Of a DNA stretch of 64,000 bases, positions 12,077 through 46,053 are shown one piece after another; within the stretch, counting starts at the first letter, position 1; each line of letters begins with the position of its first letter. The position numbers were made by a program, and so were the translations under genes. Source of the DNA: Botryotinia globosa (taxonomy: Eukaryota; Ascomycota; Leotiomycetes; Helotiales; Sclerotiniaceae); the NCBI GenBank assembly GCA_014898425.1, contig RCSZ01000006.1:2480001-2544000 (forward strand), in the 5' to 3' direction. The notes under the pieces were generated by a model that was given only the letters and a program-made list of their open reading frames with translations, was not told the origin of the DNA and did no database searches.

Positions 12077-14050
12077 ATGGATAACGTCAAAGATCTGCTA
12101 GCCAAATGTGGCTCTATGATCTACACACATCGAGAAATGATTAAATTGGAAATTCATGTTGTTCTCGCTGCTCTCTTTCCCATCTACATTGGATCACATG
12201 CATCACTGCAACGCCCTCCTTCCGCCTCACCTCGCAAATCCTCTTCTTCTAATCGTCTCCAAACCTCAGATGAGGAAGATGAAGAAGAATCCAGAGCTCA
12301 AATGGAAGGCATGACACCTTCTGATGCTATCATCTTTCCACTTCTAGCTGCCGTGGCGTTGGGAAGTCTCTATTTTATTATTAAATGGTTGGATGATCCT
12401 GCTATTCTTAATAAAATATTAGGATGGTATTTCTCTGCTCTGGGGATTTTCGGAGTCGGGAGATTGGCAAAGGATTCATTGGATGTGGGAGTGGGATTTA
12501 TATTTCCAAATGTGTGGACGAGGGGAAACAATGTTTTCCATATCGATCAGAAGTCGAGACGTCAAGTTTCCGAAGATGGACAGGGGAAGTTGGTCAGTAC
12601 TGGAGTCATGAGTCCTCTTCCTGGACGACTTTCAAAGATCAATCTACCAACAGGAGTTACGAATGCGTTATGGAATGTTCGTGGCCTGCTGAAAACAAAT
12701 TATACGGTTCATCTTCACATTAAGAATATACTTCCTCATCAGAAGTCTCCGATCAAATTCACATCACTTCTTGGTCTGTTGATAGGTATCGCCACAATCA
12801 CTGCTTACAATCTGATGAATGCACCATGGTATCTGACGAATCTTATGGGTTTTGGGTTTTGCTATGGATCTCTTCAACTTATGTCTCTGACTACATTCTT
12901 CACTGGCTCATTGGTTCTCTTCGGACTTTTCTTCTACGATATCATTATGGTGTTTTATACACCTTTAATGGTCACCGTGGCTACAACTCTGGATGTTCCA
13001 ATCAAACTTGTGTTTCCAGCGGGCGAAAGTGGAAGAGGTAGTATGTTGGGATTAGGAGACATTGTTCTACCGGGAATATTGGTCGCGCTGGCTTTAAGAT
13101 TTGATTTGTATCTGCATTATTTGTATTTACAGAAACCAACCTCTTCTATCGTTTCTCCTGCCACAACCTCAAAGAAAGCGCTCTCAACCATATCAACAAC
13201 TCCCAATTCATCGTCCCAAAAACCGGCATACAGGCCAGCAACCGGTCTCTGGGGTGAACGTTTCTGGACCTCTTCCTTCTCACCTCTCTCCCCTTCCTCC
13301 ATCGAAACAGGTGTCGAAGGAACTCGTTTTCCAAAACCTTATTTCAAAGCCGCCCTTGCGGGATACATCATTGGAATGCTCGTAACATTATTCGTTATGA
13401 ATGTGTGGAAACATGCACAACCAGCTCTCTTGTATCTGGTTCCTGGTGTCGTATTTAGTTTGTGGGGAACGGCAGCTGTGAGGGGTGAATTGAAAGTTAT
13501 GTGGGAATTTACTGAGGATGGGAGTTTAGAGGATGAGGGGAAGAAAGATGAGGATGAGAAGAAGAATGAAGGAGGAGAAAAGAAGAAAGTGGATGAGAAG
13601 GTCGAGAAGAAAGATGGTGATAAAGTGAAGGAAAAGCAAATCTCCAATGGAGAAATAGCAAAGAAGGAGCAAAATCACGAAGAAATCAAAACCAAACTCG
13701 CAGAAGCGATCGATACGCTGATGGAAAATTCAGATGCGAGTTCGATACTATCTGACGGGTCGATTTCCTGGCCTGAAGATAATGGAAATGAAAATGCGAG
13801 TGAAGCGGATGATGAATTGGTTTATGATAGGTCGGAAAAGGAAAGGCATCAGAGGATTGAGAAAGTGGCAAGGAAGGGTTTGATGGCGAAGGAAAAGAAG
13901 AAGAAGATGGAAAAGGAGAAGGAAGATCAAATTTTCCTCTTTTCTATTACGGGGCCGGGCTCAAGGGGTGCGGAGAGGAAGGGAGAGAAAACGGGGGTGG
14001 ACGGAGATGGAGAGGGAGAGGGAGAGGGAGAGGGGAAGAAAAATAGATGA
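12077..14050 (+). CDS. signal peptide peptidase family intramembrane aspartyl protease (A22B)
   Basis: Polytopic ER-membrane protease that cleaves signal-peptide remnants and tail-anchored proteins within the bilayer. Single exon, 657 aa from ATG 12077. The catalytic pair is visible: YD in FFYDIIMVF (Asp about 288) and GxGD in GLGDIVLPG (Asp about 328). The PAL motif is at about 449-451 (QPALLYLVP). Hydrophobic segments begin near residue 25 (IHVVLAALFPIYIG) and continue through VALGSLYFIIKWL, LLGLLIGIATITAY and FTGSLVLFGLFFYD. Two low-complexity insertions lie at about 45-75 (Ser-rich, acidic) and 365-415. The tail after about 485 is a long Lys/Glu-rich, probably coiled, cytosolic extension ending in Gly-Glu repeats. 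That tail makes it longer than the animal enzyme; long charged tails do occur in fungal members. The fungal ER-quality-control role is inferred. Confidence 0.93.
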   Translation: MDNVKDLLAKCGSMIYTHREMIKLEIHVVLAALFPIYIGSHASLQRPPSASPRKSSSSNRLQTSDEEDEEESRAQMEGMTPSDAIIFPLLAAVALGSLYFIIKWLDDPAILNKILGWYFSALGIFGVGRLAKDSLDVGVGFIFPNVWTRGNNVFHIDQKSRRQVSEDGQGKLVSTGVMSPLPGRLSKINLPTGVTNALWNVRGLLKTNYTVHLHIKNILPHQKSPIKFTSLLGLLIGIATITAYNLMNAPWYLTNLMGFGFCYGSLQLMSLTTFFTGSLVLFGLFFYDIIMVFYTPLMVTVATTLDVPIKLVFPAGESGRGSMLGLGDIVLPGILVALALRFDLYLHYLYLQKPTSSIVSPATTSKKALSTISTTPNSSSQKPAYRPATGLWGERFWTSSFSPLSPSSIETGVEGTRFPKPYFKAALAGYIIGMLVTLFVMNVWKHAQPALLYLVPGVVFSLWGTAAVRGELKVMWEFTEDGSLEDEGKKDEDEKKNEGGEKKKVDEKVEKKDGDKVKEKQISNGEIAKKEQNHEEIKTKLAEAIDTLMENSDASSILSDGSISWPEDNGNENASEADDELVYDRSEKERHQRIEKVARKGLMAKEKKKKMEKEKEDQIFLFSITGPGSRGAERKGEKTGVDGDGEGEGEGEGKKNR

Positions 14051-14302
14051 GAAGTTGTGGAAGGGGGGTCAGTACGAAGAGAAATCAAAGACTGGAATTG
14101 TCTAGTCCTAGTACTCAGAGAACAGGAATGGACAATACATAGGTATCCATCCATCCTTGATATCATAGTAATTACAGCATCGAGGGGATAAGAGAGGAAG
14201 GAAGAAAGAGCTGCAGATAACACATGAATTAAAAAAATAAATGAATCGATAGATGTATACTAGGTACCTATGCAGCCTACATATTCCATCCCATTCTAAA
14301 CT

Positions 14303-14493
14303 AAAAATAAAAATAGAAATAAAAATAGAAATAAAAATAGAAATAAAAATAGAAATAAAAATAGAAATAAAATAGAAATAAAAATAGAAATAAAATAGAA
14401 ATAAAAATAGAAATAAAAATAGAAATAAAAATAGAAATAAAAATAGAAATAAAAATAGAAATAAAAATAGAAATAAAAATAGAAATAAAAATA
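14303..14493. repeat. 12-bp minisatellite (AAAAATAGAAAT)n
   Basis: About 16 tandem copies of a 12-bp A-rich unit, with a few copies shortened by one base. Read on the minus strand it is an open frame of Phe/Tyr/Leu repeats, which is an artefact. Confidence 0.95.
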
Positions 14494-14630
14494 ACAAATA
14501 AAAACCCTCAAATACCCACCTATCTAAATAAACAATAAATAAACAACAAATAAAAATCATTCTACTCCATCTATTATAAACTTTTCTCCCCCCCCCTCTC
14601 CCCTCCTCTTTCTTCTTGTTTTATATATCT

Positions 14631-14920
<290 letters not shown>

Positions 14921-14984
14921 AGGTATAAGTATAAACTATTATTAAAAAGAAGAATAGAAGAAGAAGAAAAGAAGAAAAAGAACC

Positions 14985-15032
14985 TATTCTGCCTCCACGG
15001 CAGTGGCCCCCGGAGGGCCAGCGGAGCGTCAT
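14985..15032 (-). repeat. 48-nt dispersed hairpin repeat, inverted copy
   Basis: Perfect reverse complement of 11471-11518, starting TATTCTGCCTCC and ending GGAGCGTCAT. It abuts the 3' side of the large microsatellite. A 14-nt core (CCCCGGAGGGCCAG) also occurs at 23230-23243. Confidence 0.9.
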
Positions 15033-26859: not shown

Positions 26860-28929
26860 CTATCCATTCTTCTCAAGCTTCCTCAACAAGACTCTCGTTC
26901 CATGTCTTGGGATAACCATTGTGGTATATCCCATGGTGAGTGCTTTATTATCATCCGCCAATTTAAATTCATAGTTGGTCAATAAGTGAGCCAAAATTTG
27001 TTTCAATGACGCGCTGACGTACCAACGACCAGGACTGAGGCGATGTTAGTTCTTGCACCATGCTTAAAACGAATCAAAAATTGATTTACTCACCAAGCTT
27101 TCTTACTAGCCCCCCAAAATGGAAATCCACTACTAACATCCGTATACTTCATCCTGGGTTCCTCTCTCCCTCTATCCTCCGGTAATACAAATCTGAAACC
27201 ATCAAAAGTTTCCGGATCATTGTAATACCTGGGACTCTTCATCAAAGCATCCTGAGGCACCGCAATAATATTCCCTTGTGGAATCGTTTCACCGCTTGAG
27301 AATGTGAATGGTTTCATAACTTTACGTTGGATGGAAAGAGCATCTAATGGGTTCACACGAGCTGACTCGCGGAGGAAAGATTCCATCAAAGGCATGTTCT
27401 TGTACTGCATTTCCTCGGGTAAGGATAGCATAGAGCGGATTTCTTCAGTGAGAGGTTCGATGTATTCTGGGTGAAGACAGAGGTTGTAAATTGTGAAAGT
27501 CAAAACTAGAGGGAGTTGATGGGCGGAGGCGAAAGTGAGGGCGATCATTTGTTGTACGATACGCTCCACGGTGCGTTGGCGGGGGGTTGTAGATGATTCC
27601 TAGACGAGATTAGTAATTTCGACCAGACAGTATGGAAATTGAAATTCTTACAATGACCCATGTTATGCAGTCAGACTGTGATTGACAAGGTTAGCAAGCA
27701 CTTTTTGAAAGTTCTCCATGATAGCTTACGGGTAAAGTTTTCTTCTCCTCGATATCTTTGAGACGTTGGATAACCAAAGGTCTGATATGCCCGGCTATTT
27801 TTTTCATTGCACCACTCCAAGCCATAATTGCGGGGCAGGCGTATCTAAAAAGATCAGAATTGGACATTTGAGACTGTAGAAAATGGAATGCTTACGGAAT
27901 GATGAATGCAGGCATGTAACGACAGAATTCCATAGACAGAATAACATCGTTCGAGTATCGTAACACGGCATCAACATAATCTTGGTTGTTGGCTAGGTAT
28001 TTGTTAGTGAAACGAAACATCAAACATAATCCCAGTGTTTAGACGCACCAAGTTCATCTCCAACAAGCACTTGACAATTGATTCTCAAACCGATAGCCTC
28101 AGACAAGCCTAAGACAGAAACTGAAGTCCAATCTAGGTAGAATTAGTAGGGTAATTTCTCATGAGTAGTTTCCACTAAGTGCGTTACCATCGACAGTTTT
28201 GCCTTTTGACAAAACTTTACTAAAAGCTTCCTCAATCTTTTCTTGAATCCTGGGTCTCAGAGCTGGTTGATTTGTTCTCAGAAGGAATTTAAGAACACGT
28301 CCTGGTATAGTATCATGAGGATCAATCTCTCCTGTCTCAAATCCATAGAATGTGTATTTCGCTTTGACTCTCTATACATCACATTAGCTCCACCCTCATG
28401 GCACAAGTAACTTTTTCTCAAAGGGGAGGGAGAAGACATACATCTTCCATAGCATCATGTAGGGACAAATGATCTTGAGAAGACTCATTTACTTCCGCGA
28501 TGTGTGCCTCAGACGAAACAAAGACTTGATACTCGTCGAGAGCGGGAATAGCAAATGGCTCTCCTTTGGCCTACAATCCAGTTAGTTTTGGATCGGAAAT
28601 AGACTTGGTATTGGGATATCAGATTTCAGTACCTGATCATATGCTTTCTGGATGATATCTGGAGCACTGAGAACATATTTTATGCTGCTAAACCATTTTC
28701 CCCAACGCAACTTAGGTCCAGAGATGAGTATGTTACGCTATCCAAGTTAGTGATTGTTGAAATGATAAGTAGATGAAGAAGGACTTACGGGACGATTGCG
28801 GTAAATAGATGCCGTGACATAAAGTCTATTCAAAATGACCAAAATTACACAAGTATCAAACACCACCTCTGAGGTTATTCTCCAAGCACCCGCTTGAGAG
28901 CGAGCTAGGTCAAAAAGTTCCTGGAGCAT
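26860..28929 (-). CDS. cytochrome P450, ent-kaurene-oxidase-like, intact
   Basis: Membrane-anchored heme-thiolate monooxygenase, probably in secondary metabolism or detoxification. ATG at 28929; stop at 26860-26862. Roughly ten short introns join open exons in frame. The N-terminal anchor is VVFDTCVILVILNRLYV. Following exons include WGKWFSSIKYVLSAPDIIQKAYDQ, AKGEPFAIPALDEYQVFVSS and the TIPGRVLKFLLRTNQPALRP stretch. The I-helix MIALTFASAHQLPLVLTF lacks the common AGxDTT, as is usual in this family. The K-helix ExxR is in FLRESAR, and PETFDGFRF follows. The heme loop FWGASKKA-CPGRW is interrupted by an intron whose splicing restores the Cys codon. It ends TMGYTTMVIPRHGTRVLLRK. It is the only one of the three P450s here without an obvious lesion. 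The substrate is unknown. Confidence 0.85.
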
Positions 28930-30398: not shown

Positions 30399-31299
30399 CT
30401 AAACGTGTTCATAATAAGTTCTCTCGCGCTCTGGTGTCGTCGCGAGCTCATGAGTAACCTCATATCGCTGCTTGACCCTAACATTATCCAATGGAAGAAT
30501 GTTTTGCTCGCTTGTTACACTGCTTCCTCCATCGGTAGGACTCTGGCTATCCTTCGAATCCCCCGTTCGCATATAGCTGTCTCGACCGGTAAACGTATCA
30601 AGTGTTACCCTCAATCTATTTTTTCTGCTGTTCTTGGGGTAGATTTCGGAGCTCTTTGGTGGAGTATATTTGGATGGCTTGACATTTTCTTCCTTGGAGA
30701 AGAGACCGCGAATAGAGGCAAGACATACAACGACAATGGCTGGAAGAGAAATATAAATTAGCTTAACAGTTCAAAAAGGATCATTTCAGAGAATTAACTT
30801 ACCGATTGTAGTCTCAATGGCAGACCACATGTAGAGCCAAGAGGTATCAGGCATACGGGTCAATGAACTAACAACTGTAGTTCGCACGATGGCGAAGATG
30901 ACTGTGATAAGGGCTAGAGAGAAGATGATACCGAAAGTAATCTTTCTCTTCATCTTCATTTGTGTACCCCACAACATACTGATTGGGATGATCATGACTA
31001 TGCAAGTTAGTTAAGTCTAACACAAGGAAAGGGGAAGAGAGCTTACTCAAGGCATCGGAAACCACATCCCAAACACAGTTTAACTTCAAAGTAATTTGTT
31101 GGAAGTTTACCGCAGAGTCTGTTGTACATTTTGTTTCGATTGTAGTCAATGGAACAAACAAACAATGATATTGAATTGTTCCAATGCAAGCAAAATAGGT
31201 GCAAATAGTGAAAACAGTGATTGGCCACCATAGGAATTCAACCTTCGCGACATGGGATCCAAGTCGTCGAATAAAGAGCAAGAAGGAGAATTTGACAGA
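30399..31299 (-). pseudogene. 3' half of a split PTH11-like seven-helix receptor (rhodopsin domain)
   Basis: Encodes the C-terminal half only: SVKFSFLLFIRRLGSHV, then VEFLWWPITVFTICTYFACIG, KLNCVWDVVSDAL-IMIIPISMLW, KRKITFGIIFSLALITVIFAI, WSAIETTI and IVVVCLASIRGLFS, followed by a soluble Ser/Thr-rich tail ending YYEHV (stop 30399-30401). Two introns with good branch sites separate the exons. There is no start codon or N-terminal half. The sequence begins immediately after the truncated P450-2 at 31300 with no promoter. The missing half, in the correct phase, is at 41346-41760 on the opposite strand. Members of this family are plasma-membrane receptors of filamentous ascomycetes, some acting in host-surface sensing. 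Confidence 0.85.
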
Positions 31300-32983
31300 C
31301 CGGTATCTTCCTTAATCAACAACTTCAATCTCTCGATTGCATCCTCCTCACTCTCTCCCTCAAGCTGTACAGGCTTAACCTTATAATCTTTGAAGAGACC
31401 CACCAACACACCAACAAATTCAACTTGCGAGAATTTTCTCCCTGGACAAACTCTTGCACCACCAGACCAAGCAATGAACGGATTATTTGCCTTTGGAAAT
31501 TCCAAAAAGGTTTCGGTGGCTGGGTTTGAAGATGATGTTGAAGCGGGGATGATTCAGCGAGAAGGCTCCCAAGCAAGAGAATTGGAACCCCAGTGACGGG
31601 GATGTGTGTGCATGGCTGAGTAACTGGGAATGATCATGGTATGGGGTGGAAGAATGTGAGTTGAGTCGTTTACTTTGAGTTCGCGGGGTTCAGGGCCGCT
31701 TGTTTTTACAATGGCTACGGGAGTGAAGAGACGAACTGTCTCGTACTATAAAAAGAGTCAGTATAAGTTAAAAAACGGCGATGAACCGGGTGAAGTTGTT
31801 GAGTATGTTGACTTACAGTAACCGCCAAACAACGCTTCAGACGAGGGAATATTTCTGCATAGTTCGAAGTTTCTGGGTCTTGATCACCAAATACTTCATT
31901 AATCTCCTCGGCAATCCAATCTTGAACATCAGGACGAGTAGCAATCAATGCAATGCCAAAAGCCAATGTGTTAGCCGTGGTATCATGACCAGCGAAATTG
32001 AAGACGAAGATATTTCCGTAAATTTCTTGTTCCGTCAAGCCACCTTGGCTTGAAGCTTCCTTGCTCTCCGCTTGAGATGCGCGTACAAGTGAATTCATCA
32101 AGTTATTTCCATGTGTGTTCCCGTCTGCAGCGGCTTTCTTTCCTTCTTCGTATGCATTTGTCATATAGTTTTGGAATGTGACAGTTGCTTCATGAAGTGG
32201 CTTCCAGCTTTTTGGTAGCCACCATTTATCCAAATTCTTTGGACCTAATGCAACCAAAGCGATACAATTGTCCAAAATCAATTTCAAGGCATCTCTGATA
32301 TTAGCAGAGCCTTGAGTGTCAGATTCTTCTTCTGCTCCTTGATATGGATATGATTTTCCAAACCCAGCACTAGACATCACGTGTAATGACAATGTCCGCA
32401 CATCATCACCAATGGTGTTGATGGAGGACTTTGATGACCAGTATTTTCGCATTCCGGTAGCTTGACGAATGACTTCTGACCAAACAATTTCATTATTGTT
32501 CTCGTTGAAACAAGTGGCGGTGATCTTGCGATGACGCTGCCATTGCGTTCCCTCGGTCGTTCCGAGATTCGGTCCAAACACGTTTAACATCGCCAACATC
32601 TCCGTTGGTCTGGTAAATTCTCTACCACGTGCATTGATGTCAATCAAAGTCTCTGCATTGCAAAGTTGTAGCCAATTCTTGCCCGGAGTCACGAGGATAA
32701 AAGCATCGCCTATCTCCTGGTGAGCTTTGTATCGATCGTGAATTTCCCATCCTCGATAATTGAAACGAGTGAAGTTTTTGGTGAAGGGTAGATTTTGGAA
32801 GTATGGTAAGATCCTGGTGTCAACGGCCATCCATAGAGGATTACCGGAATCAATAGGTAAGATAACGAGGGGTAGACCGGTTTTCTTAGCTTTGTTGTAG
32901 TTGACAGCTAAAGAATACAGTACGTATGAGATCCATCCTGCCACCGGGATGATGAAACCTAAGAATAACGAAAAACCAGCCAT
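31300..32983 (-). pseudogene. cytochrome P450, 3'-truncated at inversion breakpoint and with internal stop
   Basis: Start at 32983 (MAGFSLFLGFIIPVAGWISYVL, membrane anchor); an in-frame extension to 33103 is less likely. The large first exon includes GTQWQRHRKITATCF, the I-helix FNFAGHDTTANTLAF and the ERR-region start AEIFPRLKRCLA. An intron near 31745-31815 follows, then YETVRLFTPV and the heme motif FIAWSGGARVCPGRKFSQVEF. Two lesions are visible. An in-frame TGA at 31554-31556 sits where a Trp is expected (WEPSR-stop-II). After KEDTG the frame runs directly into the receptor 3' half at 31300. The expected last 20 or so codons are at 41761-41827 on the plus strand. The I-helix AGHDTT and Cys-ligand motifs are otherwise intact, so decay is recent. 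Confidence 0.85.
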
Positions 32984-34156
32984 GATTGTCGACTGAATAG
33001 TAACAAAAGACAGCAACTTTGGCTGACGAAGACAGAAGATATTCACAAACCAGAAGAGAATTATTTCAAAGCTTTGGTGTTGATGACAATTATTCGGGCC
33101 CATTGCCCGAAAATGGAAATATGGGACTTTTCATATGGGAGTGTCCACAATTGATGAATTGAAATGATAGTGAAAGCAGTCAAGAGGCACAGCGCTTGAA
33201 ACAAATTACATGAAGATCATTGGATGGTCAAGAGAAATCTACCTCGCGTCTAGACTTGTAAGTTGTAAGGGTTTAGGAGAGCTACTGGACATTTTGCTTG
33301 TAATTATGGGGCGATGTGATGTTGTCGTTCAAATTATTCGCGAGCCATTATGTATCTACTCCGTGTTATACTTTTTTTCACCCAGGTATATAATTAGATA
33401 TTGATAGACGAAATTCATTCTAGTCCTAATAACGTAACATAAGGGAGTACCCGTCAATAATGAATGTCCAACATGAGATCTTTAAATCTCACATAAGATG
33501 AGACATAAGCACTTGACGAGCTGTTGCATAGCCGGTACATGTACAGTATTTGCGGCCCCCTGGAGTTTACCGATACCAGTCATTCAAGAGTCAAGACTCA
33601 AGAGTCTTGAGTCTTGACAGATATTCAATAATGGGGTAGAGAGTTATTTCGTCAACGCTGTGAACGATAGTCGGTAAAGGCGCAGAATCAAAGTTGGGGG
33701 CTAATAACTGGGACATTCACTGTGATGCGATTAATCACTGTGCCGGGGCTATATCTCATCTCCTACCCACTACCCACTACCTAGGTACTGCAGCCCCATA
33801 CACTAAATTATCCACTGTGCTATAGGCTAGGCTACCCGCCCCCGCTCACGCACATGTGGCTTCGCTAAATTTACCATCCATACGCCAATTCCCTCTATCC
33901 GTGCTCAGCCGTGTCCAAAGATGATCTGATATCTGATACCAACTAGGCTGTACCTGTTCGTTCCTAGGTATCTACATCATATCACAAGAAAGCCACGCCA
34001 AGTTTCGATTCGAAACGCCGTTTCTAAGTCTGAGGAAACCTTAAAAAAGCCAGAGGTATAACAATAGATCAAATACCTAGTACTTTGCTATCATATCTGA
34101 AAAGGGTATTCTTTCCTGAACCCCATCCATACGCACATAATTATACCTACTCCAAG
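32984..34156. other. upstream region of P450-2, no gene
   Basis: Contains the presumed P450-2 promoter, a small palindromic CAAGAGTC/GACTC cluster near 33585-33615, and TACC/TAGG tracts at 33770-33785. No coding support. Confidence 0.5.
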
Positions 34157-34472
34157 ATGCATTTCCCCGCTCTCCTCGCCGATGAGCGCCTCACCCAACT
34201 TCAACACTCAACTGCTACTTCCCAATACTCTGGTAGCTCCGAAGCCACACACAATTCTCCAATTCAGATATCGTGCATCGTTTTAATTATTCTCGGAATA
34301 TTTGCAAAGGCGGCATTCGCGGTTGAAAGTTTGGACTGGTTAGATTGTGAGTTTGTGATTTTTTTACGTCTGGTTATATGAAATTTTGACTAACTACGAT
34401 CCTTTAGATACTATCCTTTGCGTTTTGGTGTGTATTATGGCGACGAAACCATTCGTAGATATTGGAAGCTAA
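34157..34472 (+). CDS. small spliced membrane protein, possible truncated receptor-type N-terminus
   Basis: ATG 34157. Exons 34157-34346 and 34408-34472 join in frame through an intron with GTGAGT donor and GACTAAC branch site, giving about 84 aa. It has two hydrophobic segments, IQISCIVLIILGIFAKAAFAV and DYTILCVLVCIMA, separated by a LDWLD-Y turn. This spacing resembles TM1-loop-TM2 of PTH11/rhodopsin-domain proteins, but the frame stops right after TM2. It could be a truncated relic or a genuine small protein. I do not recognise a specific family. Confidence 0.35.
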
Positions 34473-34971
34473 CACCAGTATCAGACAGGAATTTGGTATT
34501 CTCGAAGACGACCGACTACGTATGTAGTTTTGTGAGTTTTGACCTAGGGGGTCTTGACATTGGTATGGCGTTGATGCAGGCAGAAAGGAATATGGAATAC
34601 AGTTACGATTATGGCTGCGGCTTGGTTTCGGTTTTAGGTTAGGGTCTGGGTCTGGGTTGCATTCTGATCTTTCATTGGCTAGATAGGCTGGATGGCAATA
34701 GGTCATAGGAACTAGGCGGACAGATTTGCATTTCGGATGGCGCAACAGAAATTACGAATTATGAATGAAACTACAGATCAACTGCATCACTATAGAGCAA
34801 CATATAAAATGAAATGAAGAATTATGCTCGTGAAATTTTATCTAATCCATCTGGTGAAAATTGGCCAAGGCAAAGTCAATGTTTCTATCTGAAGATTCGC
34901 TCAAGGAATATATAGCATAGTAGAATCAATCTATTACATTATTAAAATCTTTATCTAGGTATCGATACAAG
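34473..34971. other. intergenic, no gene seen
   Basis: Spacer of about 500 bp with CTGGGT/TTAGGG-like short repeats near 34635-34660. No gene. Confidence 0.5.
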
Positions 34972-36811
34972 TCAAACTTTCTCAGAACCAATGACACTGT
35001 TCATCATGTTCGAGGTTTCTAGCCCAACTGACTTGCCCTCGTCTTTTTCTCTTCTCCTCTCCTCTGCGACCTTTTTGAGGTTGAACCATTGCATTCCGCA
35101 AGCAAATGGCAAGGACAAACATGCTGCCGCCAAAGCGTAATACATTGCATCTCTAATAGCAATGGTGTATGCTTCTCTCAAGACAGTCAACACAATCTCC
35201 GAGCCACCGGCTAAATCCTGTAAGCCACTGGCGCCAACTTTGATAACTGCTTCTGCTGATACAGCAGTGGTATGAGCTGGTACGCTGGTCTGTAATCTTG
35301 ACAGAAAGAGGGATTGTGCGATGGAGACAGAGACGGAAGAACCAATCTGATACATGAATACCGCAATGGCATTTCCAGTAGGAGCGTCTTCTTCACTCAA
35401 AACAATTTGCAGTGCGGTATATGGAAGCTGCTGTGCCATTCCAGTTCCCCATCCATTGATTACCATATATGCAGCCCATTTGACCGTGGATGTGTTGGTA
35501 TCAATCGTAGTAAGGAGGCCGGCACAGACCATTGCGATAATCGTTCCAAGAATCATGTATGGAACGTAGTATCCCCATTTTGTTACCACAACTCCAGTAA
35601 GTGACAGGCCAATGATTTGAGGAAGGACTATCGCGATGAATCGGGTACCACTTTGGATTGCTGTAACACCTTGGATGGACTGGAAGTAAATGGGTAGATA
35701 ATAAGCATAAACAAAGCTCATCATGCCAAATGTCATGAGGAATATGCTGCCCATCAGAATTGATCTTTGTCGAAGAATACGCAAGGGAATTGTGGCATGT
35801 TCGCCTCGTTTCCATTGTAGGATGCCGAAGGATATCATGAGTAAGCCAAAGCCAATGAATAGTCCAATAACTTTGGATGATTTCCATGGCACGGTCTGCC
35901 CGCCCCATTGTAATGCTAGAAGAAGGCAATATATAGCTCCGAGAAATAGTAGGACTCCGCCAATATCCATACGTTTCAATTTTGTTGGAAGATCTAAGGC
36001 ACGGTTCGAATTTCGTACGCCTTTGATTCGAAAGAATAGTACGATAAAAACAAGTACAACAGCGCCCATAGGTACGTTACTATAATTTGGTTAGTGAATG
36101 TAGATTCTCAAGGATAAACAGAATCCATTACATCCAAAAGCACCATCTCCAGGAGGCTTTATCAGTGAAGAACCCACCGAGCACAGGGCCAATACACACG
36201 CTAATAGCAAAAGAGCTGATAACTATGCCTTGGTACATAGGCCTCTTTTCGAGTTCAACCACAAAGTTGACGATGGCCAAACTTCCTTGATAGATTCCCG
36301 CTGCACCGAAACCAAGAACAGATCGGCCTCCGATGAGAACACTGGAGGAAGGGGCTGCCGCACATAATATAGAACCCACTATTTGATGTTAGATACCATT
36401 GAATCGACTCGCAAGGTGAAAGTACTTACATTCAAATAAAGCTATTGATCCCATGTAAACGATCTTAGGATCGAAGTATTTGTACAGGTTACCAAACAAA
36501 GGTTGGAATGCTGTAACGGTAAGAAGATATGCTGAACCATACCAGGCCACATCATTCAATGCATGGAAATCAGATGTAATTCTGGGAATTGCAACAGCAA
36601 TAATATTCATATCCAATGCTAGAAGAAAGACTCCCAAGCATAAAGACCCGATGACAGCCGCCAGACGCCATGAGTGAAGAAAAAGCTCATCGGACTTGAA
36701 CGTTTGGAGGCTTGCGGGTCTTGAAACATCCGTAATGGCCACAGCGCCCATATCTTTATCGATAGAGACAGTGTCCTTGCTGGACAGAGCTTCGTCTTGA
36801 TTCAATGTCAT
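34972..36811 (-). CDS. MFS drug/metabolite efflux transporter, DHA2-type (14 helices)
   Basis: Proton-driven plasma-membrane exporter of the kind found in fungal secondary-metabolite clusters and azole resistance. ATG 36811. Exon 1 ends at 36430; two introns are spliced as LFE-LGSIL and CFW-INVPMG. It has about 560 aa. TM1 is VIGSLCLGVFLLALDMNIIAVAIP with the D-xNIIxxAIP signature; WYGSAYLLT follows; motif C-like SISxGPxxGG appears as SVCIGPVLGGFF; WRWCFWINVPMGAVV is the hallmark after TM6. Further helices follow, through MYYALAAACLSLPFACGMQWF. The Ser/Thr/Asp-rich N-terminus and EERRREKDEG tail are cytosolic. No lesion is seen. It lies inside the inverted segment between P450-2 and P450-3. 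Confidence 0.92.
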
Positions 36812-37786
36812 GGCTGGTAGATGATTCTGAACCACTTGAAGTCGTGAATGTCTTGTCTGGTGGCGTAAAATGCCTTTTGTATGAGATCAAAGATGAATGT
36901 AAAACTTCAGCAATTTGGACCTCGTGAGTTTTGTCAACCCCCTACCCACCATTCTCCATTTTTGGTTGAAAAGAGATTACATGGCATGAGTGACAAACAG
37001 CCTTCACCGTTTGCTCAGCGGGGGGGGAGGGGGGGGTGTTTTGCCAGATATCATGATTACCTCCAAAAATGTATAAGGCTTGACCACCTAACTGGAGATA
37101 GTATCGCTTCTAGCTGATCTCAGCATAAGAGGCAAAGTTATGCTGAAGCCTGAGAGTAGACAATGTATATCCGGCTTGGTGCCTATCTCTCCCGTCATTT
37201 TGATACGCAAGTTATCTACGGGGCTACAATCATCACTGTGGACTGTGGACATGGAATTCGACAAGGGGGAGAATTTTTAGACCCCCCTGTCACCTGATGT
37301 GACGCTAAAATTTAGTGCGCAGATTTTAGCTCCCAATATAAATTTGATGTGAAGAGGTGGTCAATGCAGAACAACCTTGATCTCGTAAAGTATGAACGAC
37401 CGGGAAATGTCTCATTTGGGTAATATCGCATCATGATAGTTCGTGATAGTGATTCGTGATTGGATCTCAAGGCAGATTCTCAATATCAAATTGACGCCTG
37501 GGGATGGACCAATCTGGGGACCGCGCATCTGGAAATTTGAACAAGAACCCCATAGTACAATCAGCACTATGCGACTAGTATTGGCAAACTCCTGTCTTGG
37601 GGGCTGAATCTCTCATGTTCAACAGTGGAGGAGGCAAAAGTGAGGAAGTATATCTACTTATGTCGATCCTCTTGGGTCTCCAATTGAAGAGATCGTCAAG
37701 CACTTCTTTCGTTTTCACTCGCATATTATCTTTGCTCCAGAAATTTTCAAGTCCACAAAGCTCTTCAGAGAGTAGACTATCTCACA
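36812..37786. promoter_or_regulatory. divergent interval, MFS transporter / P450-3
   Basis: 975 bp between divergent starts; should hold both promoters. A G-rich tract (GGGGGGGAGG) lies near 37021-37037. Short repeats TCGTGATAGTGATTCGTGATT occur at 37440-37460. No gene is supported. Confidence 0.5.
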
Positions 37787-39557
37787 ATGTTTCTCAACGC
37801 AGCTTGGAGATTTGTATCCACAAGCGAGTATTCACAGTACTTCCTCGCAGCAGCACTATTCGGCACTTGGCTTCTCTCATGGCGTTTGTGGAGATTCACC
37901 ATTCGGCCATACCTTAGACCACAAGACCCCGTCGAACTTCCATATTGGATACCAAGTAGGTGATCTTCTCATTGTCTACTTCAGCATTTACTAACACTAT
38001 CTAGTTCTAGGACACAGTCTTAGTTTCTTCCAGAATTCTGATGGTTTGATTGAGCGTGGCTTGTACGTTAGCGTTTTCATTTTCATCTTCTCAGTTGTCT
38101 TGATATGTTCATTTCTTCTGGAATGTTATACTAATACCCGCGTTTCAGAGACTATACTGGCAGAACCCACGAGCCCTTTGCACTTCAAGTGGCTTCGCAA
38201 TTATTCTATATTGTTACAGGACCCAAGGATGTCGCAGAAGTCTACAGAAATGTAGCCACCCTGAGTTGGGATGGCCACTTGTCTCAAATTCTTTCCAACT
38301 TTGGCTTCACTGGTAAAGCATTGAAGTTAGCATGGCATGTACCCATTCCTGGAGACAAATGCTATATGCACAAGAATCCAGTCAACCCAAAGCAGTTGTC
38401 TCTTGTCAAACTCATTGAGGAAGTTTACATTGCACAATTACTCCCTGGTGTGCACATGACCGAAATGTCAGAGAAATTTATTGTGTCACTCAAAGACTCC
38501 CTCCAACCACCAAAAATGGACTTTTGTACCTTGAGCAGGAATGGTCTCACTCGCCGGGTCTCATTGAAAGCACTTTGTCGATCTACCCTTGTGGAAGCTG
38601 CAACCTTTTCCATGTTCGACAAAGCTCTCCACAAGCTCAACCCAGATATTGTACAGCACATGTTGGACTTTAATGATAGTGCCTGGATGGTTTTCTTCGG
38701 TCTTCCCGAGATATTCTCAGCCAAAGTAGCCAAAGCCCGCAAAACAATGCAAAAGACAATGGCCGAATTTGCTCGCCTTCCAGAAAAGGAGCGTGAGGGG
38801 CAAGCTTGGGGAATTGGAACGATTCTAAAGGCACAGGAAATTGTTGGTATTGATATCGAGAGTAGAGCTTGCATGCTTTTATTGATCTACTGGGCGTAAG
38901 TTTATTGATTCCTGTGTACAAGAATAACCTCTAACAATCAATAGTGCAAACTCAAATGAGTACAACATCTCCTTTTGGCTTATTGCTCATCTTGTTTACA
39001 ACGTACCTCTTATGGAGCGAGTTCGCGACGAATTGGAAGCAGGCTGGAAGGACGGCGAGCTTGACATCAAATATCTATGTGCCAATTCTCCCAATCTTGA
39101 TGGTGCATTCCAAGAATCACTACGCTTGAACGGAGGTGCCATGATGAGTCGTCAAGTCAAACAGCCAACTATGATCGGTAACAAACTAATGCAACCTGGA
39201 TCTAATGTTCTCATGCCTTCCCGACAACTACACATGAACGAAAGTGTCTGAGGTAAAGATTATAAGAGCTTTGATGCAGAGAGATTTGTTAGAGACAAAG
39301 GCATGCTGAAACATTCTTCTTACCGCCCATTTGGTGGTGGAATCAGTTACTGCCCTGGGCGTGTTATGGCTAAGGAGCAGGTTTACGCTTTTGTTGCTAT
39401 TATTTTCAGAAGATTTGATGTTAAGTTGGCACCTGGGATAAATGGAAAATTCCCGGTCTTGGATGAGAGCACACCTTCACTCGGAATTACAGGTCCAGTG
39501 AAAAACATGGATGTGTTCATGGACTTGATTGAAAGAGAGAAGTATAATCTATACTGA
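37787..39557 (+). pseudogene. cytochrome P450 (CYP7/CYP8-like) with in-frame TGA
   Basis: Start at 37787 (MFLNAAWRFVS, anchor FLAAALFGTWLLSW). Three short introns lie near 37955-38005, 38062-38148 and 38897-38944. Core blocks are LFYIVTGPKDVAEVYRN, GFTGKALKLAW, MVFFGLPEIFSAKVAKAR, the I-helix region LLLIYWA-ANSNEYNISFWL, DGAFQESLRLNGG (K-helix ExxR) and the heme loop PFGGGISYCPGRVMAKEQ. This resembles the fungal oxysterol-7-alpha-hydroxylase-like (CYP7/CYP8) branch. A TGA at 39249-39251 interrupts HMNESV-stop-GKDYKSFDAERF. The frame is open on both sides and no plausible intron removes it, so a point nonsense mutation (expected Trp, TGG to TGA) is likely. The remaining C-terminus is intact. 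Confidence 0.8.
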
Positions 39558-39910
39558 GAGGGATGGTTAGGAACGATTCAATGAGGGGGTTTCATAAAAT
39601 GCTTTGTTATAGCTTCGTCTTTATTTTATGTACATATTTTTAACAACTTTTTGAGCGCCGAGAGGAACAATTGAATTTCATCGAACATTTAACATTTTTC
39701 TTAATGCCCTACTGATAATGAGATTGTCGTAGTGTATTTGACTAATCGAGGTTCCCTGCGTCATTGATTTGCGTTGAAAATTCTTCCACGCCATGACATG
39801 GCTTTAATTTAATATGAAGTGATACAGCACGCGAGAGTGTTAGAAGGCTATCATTTGTTGCGTCTCGTTTAGATGTCATTCTAGACGTCGGTATTAAGCG
39901 ATTGAATATT
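39558..39910. other. 3' flank of P450-3, no gene
   Basis: AT-rich spacer leading into the inverted-repeat element. A weak, transition-rich extension of the left repeat arm may reach back to about 39885 (GACGTCGGTATTAAGCG). Confidence 0.4.
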
Positions 39911-40404
39911 ATTACACCCAATTTCATAACATGTGTCCAAAAGAAAAAGCACTTTTTCAATATCATCTAATCAAAATTCCAAAAACTAAAAAATTCAATT
40001 TAATTAATATAGTTTCAAATTAAAAAAACTTTGTATTATAATATAGATCTCAATTGAAAAAATCAATAAATAAAATCTGAATGATTTTGATTAGAAATTT
40101 ATTGAATTGAAAGTGAATAAATGAAAATTCAATTCTCGAAAGTTCAGAAGTCTAAAAACTATATTAAAAATTATAATTTTATTCAATTATTTTTAATTCA
40201 ATAAATTTTCAATTAAAATTATTCAAATTTTATTTATTGATTATTTCAATTGAGATTTATATTATATTACAAAGTTTTTTCAATTTGAAGCTATATTGAT
40301 TGAATTGAAAGCAATTGAAGTATTTTTATATAGGATTTAGCAAAAAGTTGATTAGATCAAAAAAAAGTCACGTTTTGGACACACGTTATGAAATCGGGTG
40401 TAGT
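39911..40404. mobile_element. MITE-like long inverted-repeat element, about 494 bp
   Basis: Left arm about 39911-40100 and right arm about 40205-40404 are near-perfect inverted complements. The outer ends read TACACCCAATTTCATAAC (left) and TACACCCGATTTCATAAC (right, complement). Internal blocks such as AAAAAACTTTGTATTATAATAT and TCTCAATTGAAAAAATCAAT recur on the other arm. Many differences between the arms are transitions (A/G or C/T). The interior is extremely AT-rich, has no coding capacity, and should fold into a long hairpin. A target-site duplication is not clear. Confidence 0.75.
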
Positions 40405-41345
40405 CAGGGAATCTGTCAGACGAACGGGCCGCTCAAGTATCGACATCATTCATACACATGCGCGGGTAGAATTGGATTGTGAACCCAACGCAACGGTTCC
40501 TTCAAAACCATGGTACCTCAAGCCCAAAACTTTGTTCTTTACTGATAGGCTTTCACAAACGTGGCACAATCTTCACAAATCGTGCAATACCGACGATTAA
40601 AATTCTCCGCATGCGAATTATGCGACATACACGATGGTATCACACTCAGCCATGCTTGGACGGAGCTAAACCCAAATTAGGCAGGTGAATTTTTGGCCTA
40701 TGTGATTGCACAAATTAGACGCACTGGCCACAAGGCACACGTCGGTCTCACATCCAGGCGGTTGGAAATGAGAATTAGACACGCTTCCTCCGTGACTCCT
40801 CCTGTCACAAAATCTCGATAAGCATATAAACAAAGAATTGGCAGAGCGATACTGTGTGACGGTAGTTTTTTGAGTTTGTGACTAGTGAAACCAAGGATCT
40901 GGAGGAGTACTCACGAACCATACAGGGTAATGAGCTCGGCGGCTAACGCAGTTGGGGTCTCTACAGGCTTTGGCCGTGAGATAGACGACTGACCATGAGA
41001 TTCTTGCAGAAATTTTGGCAGAATGTATCGCGAGAATTACGACCTTACTAATCTAGGGCTTACCTTACAGTAATAAACGCATGGCACAGTGGGTTCACCG
41101 ATCACAGTGGGCAGATTCAATAGAACTTACGGACACCCCCATCCTAAAAGGCTGTGATGAAAGAGACCCCATCCTTATTTGATTTCCATGTGGCATCTCT
41201 GTAATCAGTGGCAGTAGATAAGCACTACGTTTCTCCATATTCGAGAGTTTCAAACGCAAGCTTTCTTCTTTTGTACCGTGGGCAATCATCCTCCACTGAT
41301 TCAGTATAGACAACCAAGTTACTCGAGGTTGACTCATTATACACC
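40405..41345. other. upstream region of receptor 5' half, no gene
   Basis: No coding support. It presumably contains the original receptor promoter. Confidence 0.4.
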
Positions 41346-41760
41346 ATGTCTACTTCTACTTCGGGTTCAGTGGCCACTGTTGAGCCAACAAAGGTTGATA
41401 TGAAACCCTTCCTGGTACGTGCACTTGTTGTATTCACGAATGCTGGGGAAGCCTCAACTAACAATCATTCAGGGTGTCATCTGGGGAGGTTTCGCAATAG
41501 CTGCAATTTGTATGGCCTTACGGACATTCTCTAGAATTAAGACTTTCAAAAGCCTCTATAACGACGATATTTTTGCCTTTCTGGCCTTGGCTCTCGCACT
41601 TGCCAGTGCAATACTATGGCAGATTCATGCCCAAGCAATGTTCGACCTCATGGCCGTGTCAGCTGGGATCAAAATGCCTGGAGCGGATTTCGTTACCAAC
41701 AGTGAGGCTTATTCCAAAGCATCTGGAGTCGTCATCATCCTCTTTTACTCCACTTTGTGG
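41346..41760 (+). pseudogene. 5' half of the split PTH11-like receptor
   Basis: ATG 41346. Exon 1 is 41346-41414 (23 codons) and exon 2 is 41473-41760 (exactly 96 codons). It encodes the N-terminal helices: GVIWGGFAIAAICMALRTFSR, the YNDDIFAFLALALALASAI turn with the DD signature typical of the family, and SKASGVVIILFYSTLW. At 41760 the receptor similarity stops in mid-gene. The remaining half (SVKFSFLLF onward) is at 31299-30399 on the minus strand in the matching phase 0. Without it the frame ends in an unrelated 15-codon tail. Confidence 0.88.
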
Positions 41761-41827
41761 GTTCAGATTGCTGTTGCAACTGTTACATCCCGAAAGAATG
41801 TTCTTTAAATGGGAGAAGAGAGTCTGA
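41761..41827 (+). pseudogene. displaced 3' end of P450-2
   Basis: In the phase set by joining to P450-2 (KEDTG plus these bases), this reads FRLLLQLLHPER, then MFFKWEKRV and TGA at 41825-41827. That is a typical P450 C-terminal strand (LLQxLHPER...xW). It follows the receptor half without a gap. Confidence 0.82.
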
Positions 41828-44241
41828 TTGCCCTATGTGCGGGAAGATGTTCTTGTAGAAGATGGAAGGAATATATATGCATTGTAATTATTTAGTTGTA
41901 AAGGTATTAAAGGCTCATCTCATTCTGTTCACTACGTGCATCGTAACTTATCCCCACGAGGCGGATACGGACAATCCTTCCATGATCAATTCAAGTTTGC
42001 CATTGGAATTGAGAACGTCCTCGGAATTCGAATCGCAACTACCAAAAGACTTAGCGGCTGGGAATCTTCTCGATAACAAATTTACTGTCTCAATTCACTG
42101 GTGTTAAAGTGGTCGCATCTCCATGCCTGATTTACATTGCATTCAAAGCTGTCCTTGTTGCTCAAGGAGTGCGTCATAGAAAGTCCAGACGCAGGAAATC
42201 CTGAAAACCAAGACGCTCAACTTCTCTTCCTCGTCAATTCCCAGACAGTGAAGTGAACGATGTAATAGAGCTCATTAAACTTTGGATTGAGATTGGGTTA
42301 AGTCTAGAATACCAGGACATATTCGTGAACGAGCCAAAGGGAACAGGAAAACCACAGGATTCTGTATCCCAACGGACTATCGAAATTCAAATGCTGCGGC
42401 ATGAATACGTCCATGAATTGGTGATGGGATACACAGCGCACATGATGCAGGCAGTTGTCAAACATGGTGTTGCGTTCATGCAAAGTATGAGGCTCGATAC
42501 TTAGCTATAGTATCTCCAGCGCCTATCAATATTTTTGGATACAAAGTCATCCTTGATGAACTTGACCTTGAAATAAGTGGAAATGAAAAGCTTTCACCAT
42601 GGCAAATAAAACGGTTCGGTATAACCAAATTGTCTGTTGTTTCTTGATATCTCCATCAGACTTGAGTATGCTCAAATGCGAACTTTTAGATTATATCTTC
42701 CACCGGTCAGGATCTTATTGTTTCACAGTGCGAGAGACTTTCAAACATGTTTGAGAACAAGTTTGGCTTTCTACACAGATTCTTATTTTCCATGGAACAA
42801 GGTGGAGGTTCTCAGCCCCTCTGAATTCCAGTATGATCTCCAAGAGCTATTGGTATATCAATGCAGGATGCACGTGGATGTTATGCCATTTATTCTCTCG
42901 AGACTGGATTCATCTTGTGAGGAGTTTATTGATCGATAAATCATTAATAGTCTTAGTCTCATAATGCAAACCTCTCTTCGTGCCGCGTTCTGTTTCTGGC
43001 CTTTTGTTCGATTAGTACTGGCCGGCAATCAATCTGAATAGTTGGACCTTGGTAGCTCGCGGAAGACAAAGAGAACCATGTTTATCGCCTGGAAATATGT
43101 TTGAAGTTGGAAGGGATCTTATCACCATGTCTTGACGGGACGCAAGTAGAATTAGCACGCCTATTATCGGAGGAGATCAAGAGAGCCCGCCTCAGTCTCT
43201 TGGCTCTGTATGATATCAAGAGGAGCATAGCAAGAGCCTGACATCGATTATTGCTCATTTTTGACCCTGGTATCACTAGTCTACAGCTCAGCAATTTGAT
43301 TGAACGGTCGAAAGGGTCATTGAGGATCTTACAAAAACAGGACTATGGTGTCTCGGAGCAGCAAGGTTGAGCATTGTACCGAAAGATTGTGTCTAAGCTC
43401 TGCAAAATAGATTCATATAACATTCCCTTGAATTTAGTCTAAGATTTATTCAGTGAAATTTTCCAAAGGAAGAACTTCTGGGTAGTGCTATATCCATTTT
43501 TCACGCAGCATTGTTGGTCCAAAGATATTGTGAATAAGATACGAGGTGAAGATGTAGATCTTAATACTTTCGGAAATCATTTCGAGGAAGTGGTAATTAA
43601 CCCATATGATGCAAAGATGCATGAGTGACTTTCTACTATAACATACTCGTTCCAAGCGAATGGTTTCTCAAGCGGACTACAACGCGATGATACTCTCACG
43701 CACGAAATCTGTGAAGCTCGATATGATCAAGTTGTTATTGAATTCAAGGATAGGAAAGGCGGTATCAGATGCTGGAATATCATAACAGAGCACTGAGCTC
43801 TCAGAAGATCTTTTCTTAAAACCACTCAAATGGCAAACTCGTTTGATTCTCAAATATCTCATTTGGTATGCAGATTCTGCGCTGTGTAGAATAGGAGCAT
43901 ATCTTTACCTTCCTAGGAATATTATAAATGATACATTACATCGCATTTCGCAAAGTGGACCAGTATTAAACCAGAAGTCTAAATTTTTCTTCTCAATCTC
44001 CCCCAAAAATGGCATTGACACGAAATAACGAACCTCAAGACAAATACAGTAGGCCAAATCAACCATATCCCGGTAGACATATATGCATCCTTCATATGAT
44101 ATTCCCGTGACTCCTGCACAGGAGTATTGCGCGTGGATTCTTCTTCTCATTCATTATTGAGAATTTCGTTGATTGTATGGCAATTGTTTTATTATTCAAC
44201 TAACAAATTACAGGGTATATATATAATATTTCTCACAACTG
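41828..44241. other. gene-poor region right of inversion breakpoint
   Basis: Short open frames at 42253-42504 and 42637-42939, plus a third stretch near 42515-42645, look like protein fragments broken by stops, but I cannot assign a family. Possibly one decayed gene; not called. Confidence 0.4.
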
Positions 44242-44577
44242 TATAGCATTTCATATGGATTTTTCAATTCAAGATAATTTTCGAATTTTATATTTACTAC
44301 TCAATTCTTTTTTCTTCTTCTTCTAATCATTCTAATCTTTTTTCATTAATTATTTCAATTAATTTCTTTTATTATTATTTCTCTTTTTTATATAAATTGA
44401 ATGAATTATTATTGATTTCCATTTAGATTTTTACTAATAATTATTTTTAGTGTAATGTTTTTCAATTATATTCCTTTTATATTAAATCATATTAAACTAT
44501 ATTAAATTAAATAGTTAATTAATGAATTTAAAATTCGAAAAACTTTTTGGATTGAAAACTCTATATGAAGTGCTATA
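44242..44577. mobile_element. MITE-like element, about 336 bp with roughly 50-bp terminal inverted repeats
   Basis: The left end begins TATAGCATTTCATATGG. The right end, read as complement, begins TATAGCACTTCATATAG. Similarity continues inward through TTTTTCAAT and TTTCGAATTTTA for about 50 bp. The interior is over 80% AT and non-coding. A related right end is found at 53949-53965. Confidence 0.7.
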
Positions 44578-44905
44578 TATCATATCTAGGATATGATTAT
44601 TTAACATACAATAGACTTGGAACTGAATAGTAAGCGATCTTAGTTCAAGTCCGGTTCATATTTTCATCGTAGGAATTTACAAGCAAGTCAATTCAAAATT
44701 CGATTTGAGTCTACATCACATCAATCAATTTCAAATTTTGGGGCTTTTGGAACTTCTATCATTTCTAAACGCTAGTTTGTATGTGTAACAAAAAGACTGC
44801 AAAAAGAGACTCCTAATCAAAAACAGTATATATACATTGAAAACCAAACTCTCATTTATGCATCCAGGTTAATCCCCTGTCGTTTTGAGCAAAGCACTAA
44901 AATGC
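44578..44905. other. 3' flank of AA9 gene, no gene
   Basis: AT-rich. A B-box-like string (AGTTCAAGTCC near 44643) lacks a matching T-stem or A box, so no tRNA is called. Confidence 0.5.
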
Positions 44906-46053
44906 TTATGCGTCACAGCTTTCATCATCAGAAGCAGCGGCGGAAGTAGCGGCTGGGGCGACAGATGTGATCATGGTGGTTGGGGCAGGAGTTGTAGATA
45001 CAACGGCACCGACTGCGCTTGAAATGGCAGCGGATGAAGCAGCGGAAGTAACAGCGGCGGCCGAGCTAGCGGCGGCACTGGTAGCAACAACGGCGACAGA
45101 AGAAGCAGCTCCAGATGCGGCAGATGCGGCAGAAGAAGCAACTCCAGATGCGGCTCCAGATGCGGCAGATGCGGCAGAAGAAGCAACTCCAGAAGCAACT
45201 CCAGATGCGGCTCCAGATGCGGCTCCAGATGAGGCTCCAGATGCGGCTCCAGATGCGGCTCCGGCAGAGTTGTACATAGGTGGACCGGGGATATTGTAGG
45301 CGAGGGAAGAGTAGATGCTGACCAAGATACCTGGGTCGGTAGGAGTGTAGAGAGCCTCACCGAGAGTTCCCTTAGGAGCGAGGGTACCGGAACCAGAGAC
45401 TTCCAAGTTGATACATTGAGGATAGTTTTGAGCACCACCCTCAGATCCAGCACTGTGGAGAGCAATAATCTCATGACGAGCGACGTAGTTTCCAGGAGCG
45501 AGATCAGCTGGGATAGTTGCGGTCCAGGTGTTGTTGTTGGCAATCATTTTGTCGGAAGCCCAGGTTCCGGGAACAGTGGTGTCGTCTATCAAGCCAGCTT
45601 CGTCAATCTTGAAGAATTCAAGAGTGGTCTTGTCAACGGTAGCACAGTCTCCCTTGCAGTTGGCAAGGTAGGTGATGACTGGACCATGATGTGAGTCAGG
45701 CCAGACAGTCCACTGGAAATCAATGGTTTCACCAGCGGCGATCTTAGCTGAGAGAGCAGCGTTTTTACCGTCTTTGGCACAGATGATATCACCAGTGGCA
45801 TAGGCAGATGGTGGTGTGAATCCGAGGTCAAGGTTGGTGTCAGACCAACCGATCGAATCAGGTTGTGGGGTTTGGTATGCGTAGCTGACGAGCCATCCAG
45901 TGTAGCTATGTTGAGTCAATATATTGAAGTTTTAAGATGACGCGGGAAAGTTTGAACTTACTAGGTTCCACCAGCTACAATACCGGAAACGTATCCGTGA
46001 GCAGAAACTGCGGCGACCATACCGGCGAAAGCGGTGAGCTTAGAGAAAGACAT
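44906..46053 (-). CDS. AA9 lytic polysaccharide monooxygenase (paralogue 1)
   Basis: Secreted copper enzyme that oxidatively cleaves cellulose or related beta-glucans. Exons 46053-45962 and 45905-44906; 363 aa. Signal peptide [18 protein letters not shown], then the copper-brace His1 at residue 19 (HGYVSGI). The second Cu ligand is His104 in [16 protein letters not shown], and the axial Tyr is near 192 in [12 protein letters not shown]. The family stretch [23 protein letters not shown] and [12 protein letters not shown] is complete. After about residue 250 a long Ala/Ser/Gly low-complexity tail ([12 protein letters not shown] units) ends in a short acidic SCDA. There is no CBM1. A TATA-like element lies upstream (see 46278-46285). 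It is a paralogue of the gene at 51.7 kb. Confidence 0.93.

Follow-up and report, generated by a model that had tools for sequence, protein, structure and literature searches.

A very probable 10,461-bp reciprocal inversion splitting a PTH11-like receptor gene and severing the tail of a cytochrome P450 gene in Botryotinia globosa

In fungi, most inversions are recognised from a changed order of genes, and their joints often lie in intergenic DNA or in repeats. A comparative study describes, in the passages concerned, the genomes of Botrytis cinerea B05.10 and B. fabae G12 as highly syntenic apart from rearrangements, which include 12 inversions spanning 10-400 kb and a further 18 smaller than 10 kb (PMC10971195); because of these counts, an inversion of the size reported here is taken to be ordinary in these fungi. 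In Sclerotinia sclerotiorum, passages of another report give a 3.6-kb inversion at MAT, flanked by 250-bp inverted repeats and segregating 1:1 in progeny (PMC3574095). The present analysis concerns a 64-kb window (the whole stretch of DNA that was analysed, from contig RCSZ01000006.1) of Botryotinia globosa, in which a PTH11-like receptor gene and a cytochrome P450 gene (P450-2) are both interrupted. Because both genes are broken at one shared pair of points, with the reading phase kept, one reciprocal inversion of positions 31300-41760 is favoured and is very probably the best account of both. The literature search yielded no report of a PTH11 gene disrupted at a fungal inversion breakpoint, which does not prove that none exists.

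The assembly comprises 45.7 Mb in 27 contigs, and the window (C6:2480001-2544000) lies inside a contig of 2.69 Mb. A sequence-only reading, made by a model from the window, had proposed a reciprocal inversion of about 10.46 kb. This was borne out, both joints being read directly in the sequence, and the segment was delimited as follows.

31300-41760, no strand: inverted segment of 10,461 bp; the GG common to both joints allows each cut position to be shifted by up to 2 bp

Both joints lie inside exons, and no base was seen to be lost or gained at either. The receptor gene is present as two halves.

41346-41760, plus strand: 5' half of the PTH11-like receptor gene, 119 amino acids, one intron, own start codon
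30399-31299, minus strand: receptor 3' half, PTH11-like with fungal-rhodopsin domain, 262 amino acids, two introns, without its own start codon

The 5' half starts at an ATG at 41346 and consists of exon 1 (41346-41414) and exon 2 (41473-41760) with standard splice sites. It ends at ...FYSTLW in phase 0 at position 41760, and its reading frame continues for 15 codons beyond the joint before a stop. The 3' half, on the minus strand, opens at 31299 with SVKFSFLLF, has standard splice sites at both introns and ends at a stop at 30399-30401. The 3' half alone matched the Pfam profile Fung_rhodopsin, PF20684 (taken here to be the family of PTH11-like receptors), with E 6e-20 and 72.2 bits (cut-off 27). 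The match covered profile positions 73-237 of 237, with the front of the domain absent and an abrupt onset. Exon 2 of the 5' half alone gave no Pfam match at E ≤ 1, and the receptor pieces gave no match in NCBIfam. A simple hydropathy scan located six helices, two in the 5' half and four in the 3' half, against the seven membrane helices of such receptors; a helix severed by the joint could escape the scan.

Nine non-self receptor loci were listed and four were compared (C5, as L005 and L027; L006; L008; L009). The two halves were queried separately with tblastn against the C5 paralogue L027. Residues 24-119 of the 5' half aligned to L027 4125-4415 (E 4.6e-16) and residues 2-248 of the 3' half to L027 4419-5258 (E 1.1e-41). 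Residue 1 of the 3' half corresponds to L027 codon 4416-4418, the sole codon in between, leaving a gap of 0 and an overlap of 0. The split claimed by the sequence-only reading, with FYSTLW at 41760 on one side and SVKFSFLLF at 31299 on the other, thus appears on the paralogue as an abutment with zero gap. Both halves were matched by C5 alone among the four loci; L006 and L009 matched the 3' half only, and L008 gave no match.

The P450 gene was read in three pieces, two inside the segment and one beyond the right joint.

31817-32983, minus strand: P450-2 exon 1, 389 amino acids, open, with no stop
31300-31745, minus strand: P450-2 exon 2 up to the joint, haem-binding region, with one in-frame stop at 31554-31556
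41762-41827, plus strand: severed C-terminal tail of P450-2, 21 amino acids (41762-41824) and a stop codon

The open frame that contains exon 1 (31718-33130) matched PF00067 with E 8.3e-27 and 94.5 bits against a cut-off of 22.8, and exon 1 gave 29 distant P450 matches among solved-structure sequences (best E 5.1e-10). The piece at 31320-31553 matched PF00067 positions 396-442 with E 1.2e-4 and 21.4 bits, slightly below the same cut-off of 22.8. What is presumably the haem-binding motif in exon 2 was recognised by eye. The claim that the joint cuts the P450 gene, with its end at 41761 onward, stood; the description of the gene as beheaded did not, as the C-terminal tail was lost and not the head. 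Absent from the sequence-only reading was the in-frame stop in exon 2 (31554-31556, minus strand), which lies 84 codons ahead of the joint and is independent of the inversion. An intron removing this stop was considered and rejected, none of the four listed donor motifs lying between the first bases of exon 2 and the stop. P450-2 carries this extra stop, and therefore the inversion is not necessarily the cause of its disablement; the stop may have arisen before the inversion or after it.

Seven non-self P450 loci were given identifiers, and four of them were fetched and compared. The candidates for the tail were the 1893 stop-ended 21-mers from the six frames of the window. When the proposed tail was aligned with two of the P450 paralogues (C6:884 kb and C5:2452 kb), the stop codons coincided. 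Ungapped, the tail scored 46 and 44 against these paralogues, with next best candidates at 14 and 13, and ranked first of the 1893; with gapped local scoring it reached 49 and 50 against the C6 and C5 paralogues (next best 34 and 29) and again ranked first. No shuffle out of 100,000 reached the score of the tail for either paralogue. As judged from these comparisons, the evidence for the tail is carried by the two close paralogues. The proposal that inversion restores both frames, in phase, at one pair of points is upheld by phase 0 of the receptor together with the P450 tail match. The four fragments could instead be unrelated leftovers or separate small genes whose reciprocity is apparent only, and the damage to P450-2 apart from the joint would suit that explanation; the abutment of the receptor halves with zero gap and the stop-to-stop match of the tail at the reciprocal position speak against it, and it is almost certainly wrong.

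The sequence shared by the joints is GG (2 bp) and nothing beyond, in agreement with the sequence-only reading. Identity of at least 2 bp was found in 16.6% of 200,000 random cut pairs drawn from the window, and identity of exactly 2 bp is expected for roughly 11%. Because such identity is common among random pairs, the GG favours no mechanism and disfavours none. A search of the window for an inverted repeat connecting the joints found none. Flank against flank within 1.5 kb of the joints, the best matches were of 11-31 nucleotides with E of at least 1.1, and none connected the cut points. Queries of 601 bp across the left joint and 901 bp across the right joint each returned only the self-match in the assembly and were thus single-copy. 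One repeat resembling a miniature inverted-repeat transposable element (MITE) was found inside the segment.

39913-40402, no strand: MITE-like repeat with long hairpin arms (141 nucleotides), ending 1358 bp from the right joint

This repeat gave 31 matching stretches in the assembly, which were grouped into 17 places including its own (two adjacent, some partial). Its presence would lend some support to an inversion made through inverted-repeat recombination or a transposable element, as would the inverted-repeat inversion known from passages on Sclerotinia MAT (PMC3574095). Against this route stand the distance of the repeat from the right joint, the sharing of just 2 bp, the failure of any flank match to connect the cuts and the single-copy result across each joint; it is very unlikely. 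A repeat or MITE at the joints themselves was accordingly rejected as a candidate. The preference of the sequence-only reading for end joining over repeat recombination is supported as the best inference, no repeat being present at the joints. A second hairpin lies past the right joint at 44242-44577, with 69-nucleotide arms that are 78% complementary, in AT-rich surroundings (44001-45000, 30% GC).

Several points weigh against a single inversion. The analysis is based on one assembly and its own paralogues, with the uninverted order in relatives as a prediction. The 5' half of the receptor was matched by one of the four paralogue loci compared. With local scoring, two more distant P450 paralogues failed to single out the tail, equal scores being reached by 15 of the 1893 candidates for L029 and by 7 for L030; of the two paralogues that do discriminate, the one on C5 is itself frameshifted upstream. 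The separate stop in P450-2 means that this gene may have been dead before the inversion. Finally, the present order was taken from the assembly, where it would also be expected if the strain were uninverted and the assembler had flipped the segment. For an assembler to flip a segment, long inverted repeats are usually required at its ends; none were found there, the cuts are base-exact within two exons, and the position of the segment within a 2.69-Mb contig of a 27-contig assembly suggests that long reads were used. An assembly error is very unlikely.

The joint anatomy and the abutment of the receptor halves on the paralogue were observed directly; the earlier order, the end joining mechanism and the young age of the event are inferred. 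In the earlier order, the receptor and P450 genes would have been divergent and transcribed outward from the segment. Two double-strand breaks on one chromosome, 10.46 kb apart, would have cut the receptor gene and the P450 gene, the latter 21 codons before its end, and the intervening fragment would have been rejoined in reverse orientation by end joining. Both 5' parts would have moved with the segment, leaving the receptor 3' half and the P450 tail outside. The receptor would be reduced to a fragment of 119 amino acids running into 15 foreign codons and to an orphaned 3' half that has no start, and the P450 would lack its own C-terminus. The simplest account would be two breaks followed by end joining, which is proposed because no repeats are present at the joints.

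In the gene model used, the receptor halves carry 0 stops or frameshifts over ~1142 bp, and because of this lack of lesions the inversion is probably recent. With assumed indel-to-substitution ratios of 0.05 to 0.2, and with both halves taken as neutral since the event, the 95% upper bound on neutral divergence is 3.1% to 1.1%.

A more specific origin, a single meiotic double cut by Spo11-type breaks of which the inversion would be the trace, was also considered. Two breaks with the same 2-nucleotide 5' overhang (GG/CC) could swap ends and be joined through their cohesive overhangs with no loss. This would yield a reciprocal inversion with 2-bp identity at both joints and would, in a single event, break up an old receptor-P450 pair. 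Passages of a mouse preprint discuss end joining at Spo11 breaks that are unresected and carry 2-nucleotide 5' overhangs (PMC12918824). In those passages, locally inverted sequence was the source of none of the 13 insertions at unresected ends, and the overhangs are thought to be removed or filled in (PMC12918824). A Spo11 origin is weakened by this mouse result, by the frequency of 2-bp identity by chance and by the fact that one event is no test, and it is a very doubtful reading of the locus.

Besides P450-2, two further genes were read inside the segment.

34975-36886, minus strand: major facilitator superfamily (MFS) transporter gene, three exon-like pieces, each matching PF07690 above the cut-off
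37688-39554, plus strand: further P450 gene, matching PF00067 at 38928-39248 and 39252-39554, front end guessed

The pieces of the further P450 gene at 37688-37960 and 38135-38896 gave no P450 match. In NCBIfam, the P450 and transporter matches were far under their cut-offs. At C5:2452-2462 kb, a P450 (L026 5126-6829) and a receptor (L027 4122-5267) lie divergent and ~7 kb apart, and this pair consists of the best receptor paralogue and the second-best P450-2 paralogue. Because the C5 paralogues share the divergent arrangement at that distance, the pairing of receptor and P450 is probably old. The P450 partner of the receptor is damaged at both loci, in the window and on C5. No match to the transporter or to the further P450 was found in the 20 kb of C5 examined. 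Another P450 fragment or exon lies immediately left of the receptor 3' half, at 27090-27599 on the minus strand (PF00067, E 1.5e-20).

Elsewhere in the window, a repeat array with a spacing of mostly 12 bp was observed at 45027-45271; it lies in the open frame of a minus-strand AA9 gene, which gave 30 AA9-type matches among solved-structure sequences. Positions 14001-15000 have the lowest GC content (20.6%) among the 64 one-kb bins. The genes of the window have short introns and belong to families (fungal rhodopsin domain, AA9, P450) of filamentous-fungus type. A transfer RNA scan of the window with bacterial settings found none. Outside the window, three short fragments (L031-L033; C6:1966-1971 kb and C20:88 kb) showed 81-94% identity to a ribosomal spacer sequence taken to be of Botrytis/Sclerotinia type, and a 5.8S family search gave no match.

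The inversion falls in the same size class as those between B. cinerea and B. fabae (PMC10971195). Base-level joints in two genes are not described in the passages of that study (PMC10971195); here they are resolved. As in the small S. sclerotiorum MAT inversion, a gene is truncated at a breakpoint and the 3' piece left behind has no in-frame start codon; the two differ, on the passages concerned, in that 250-bp inverted repeats flank the segment there and none occur at the joints here (PMC3574095). Passages on the long inversions of Sphaerulina musiva likewise position breakpoints with respect to genes in a plant-pathogenic filamentous fungus; unlike those, both joints here lie within exons (PMC12778737). 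Because the joints are exonic and no base was apparently lost, each base of the joining is readable; should both genes be intact in relatives, one rearrangement would here have disrupted two genes at a time that can be dated. The event belongs to a known kind of rearrangement and is unusually legible and very clean.

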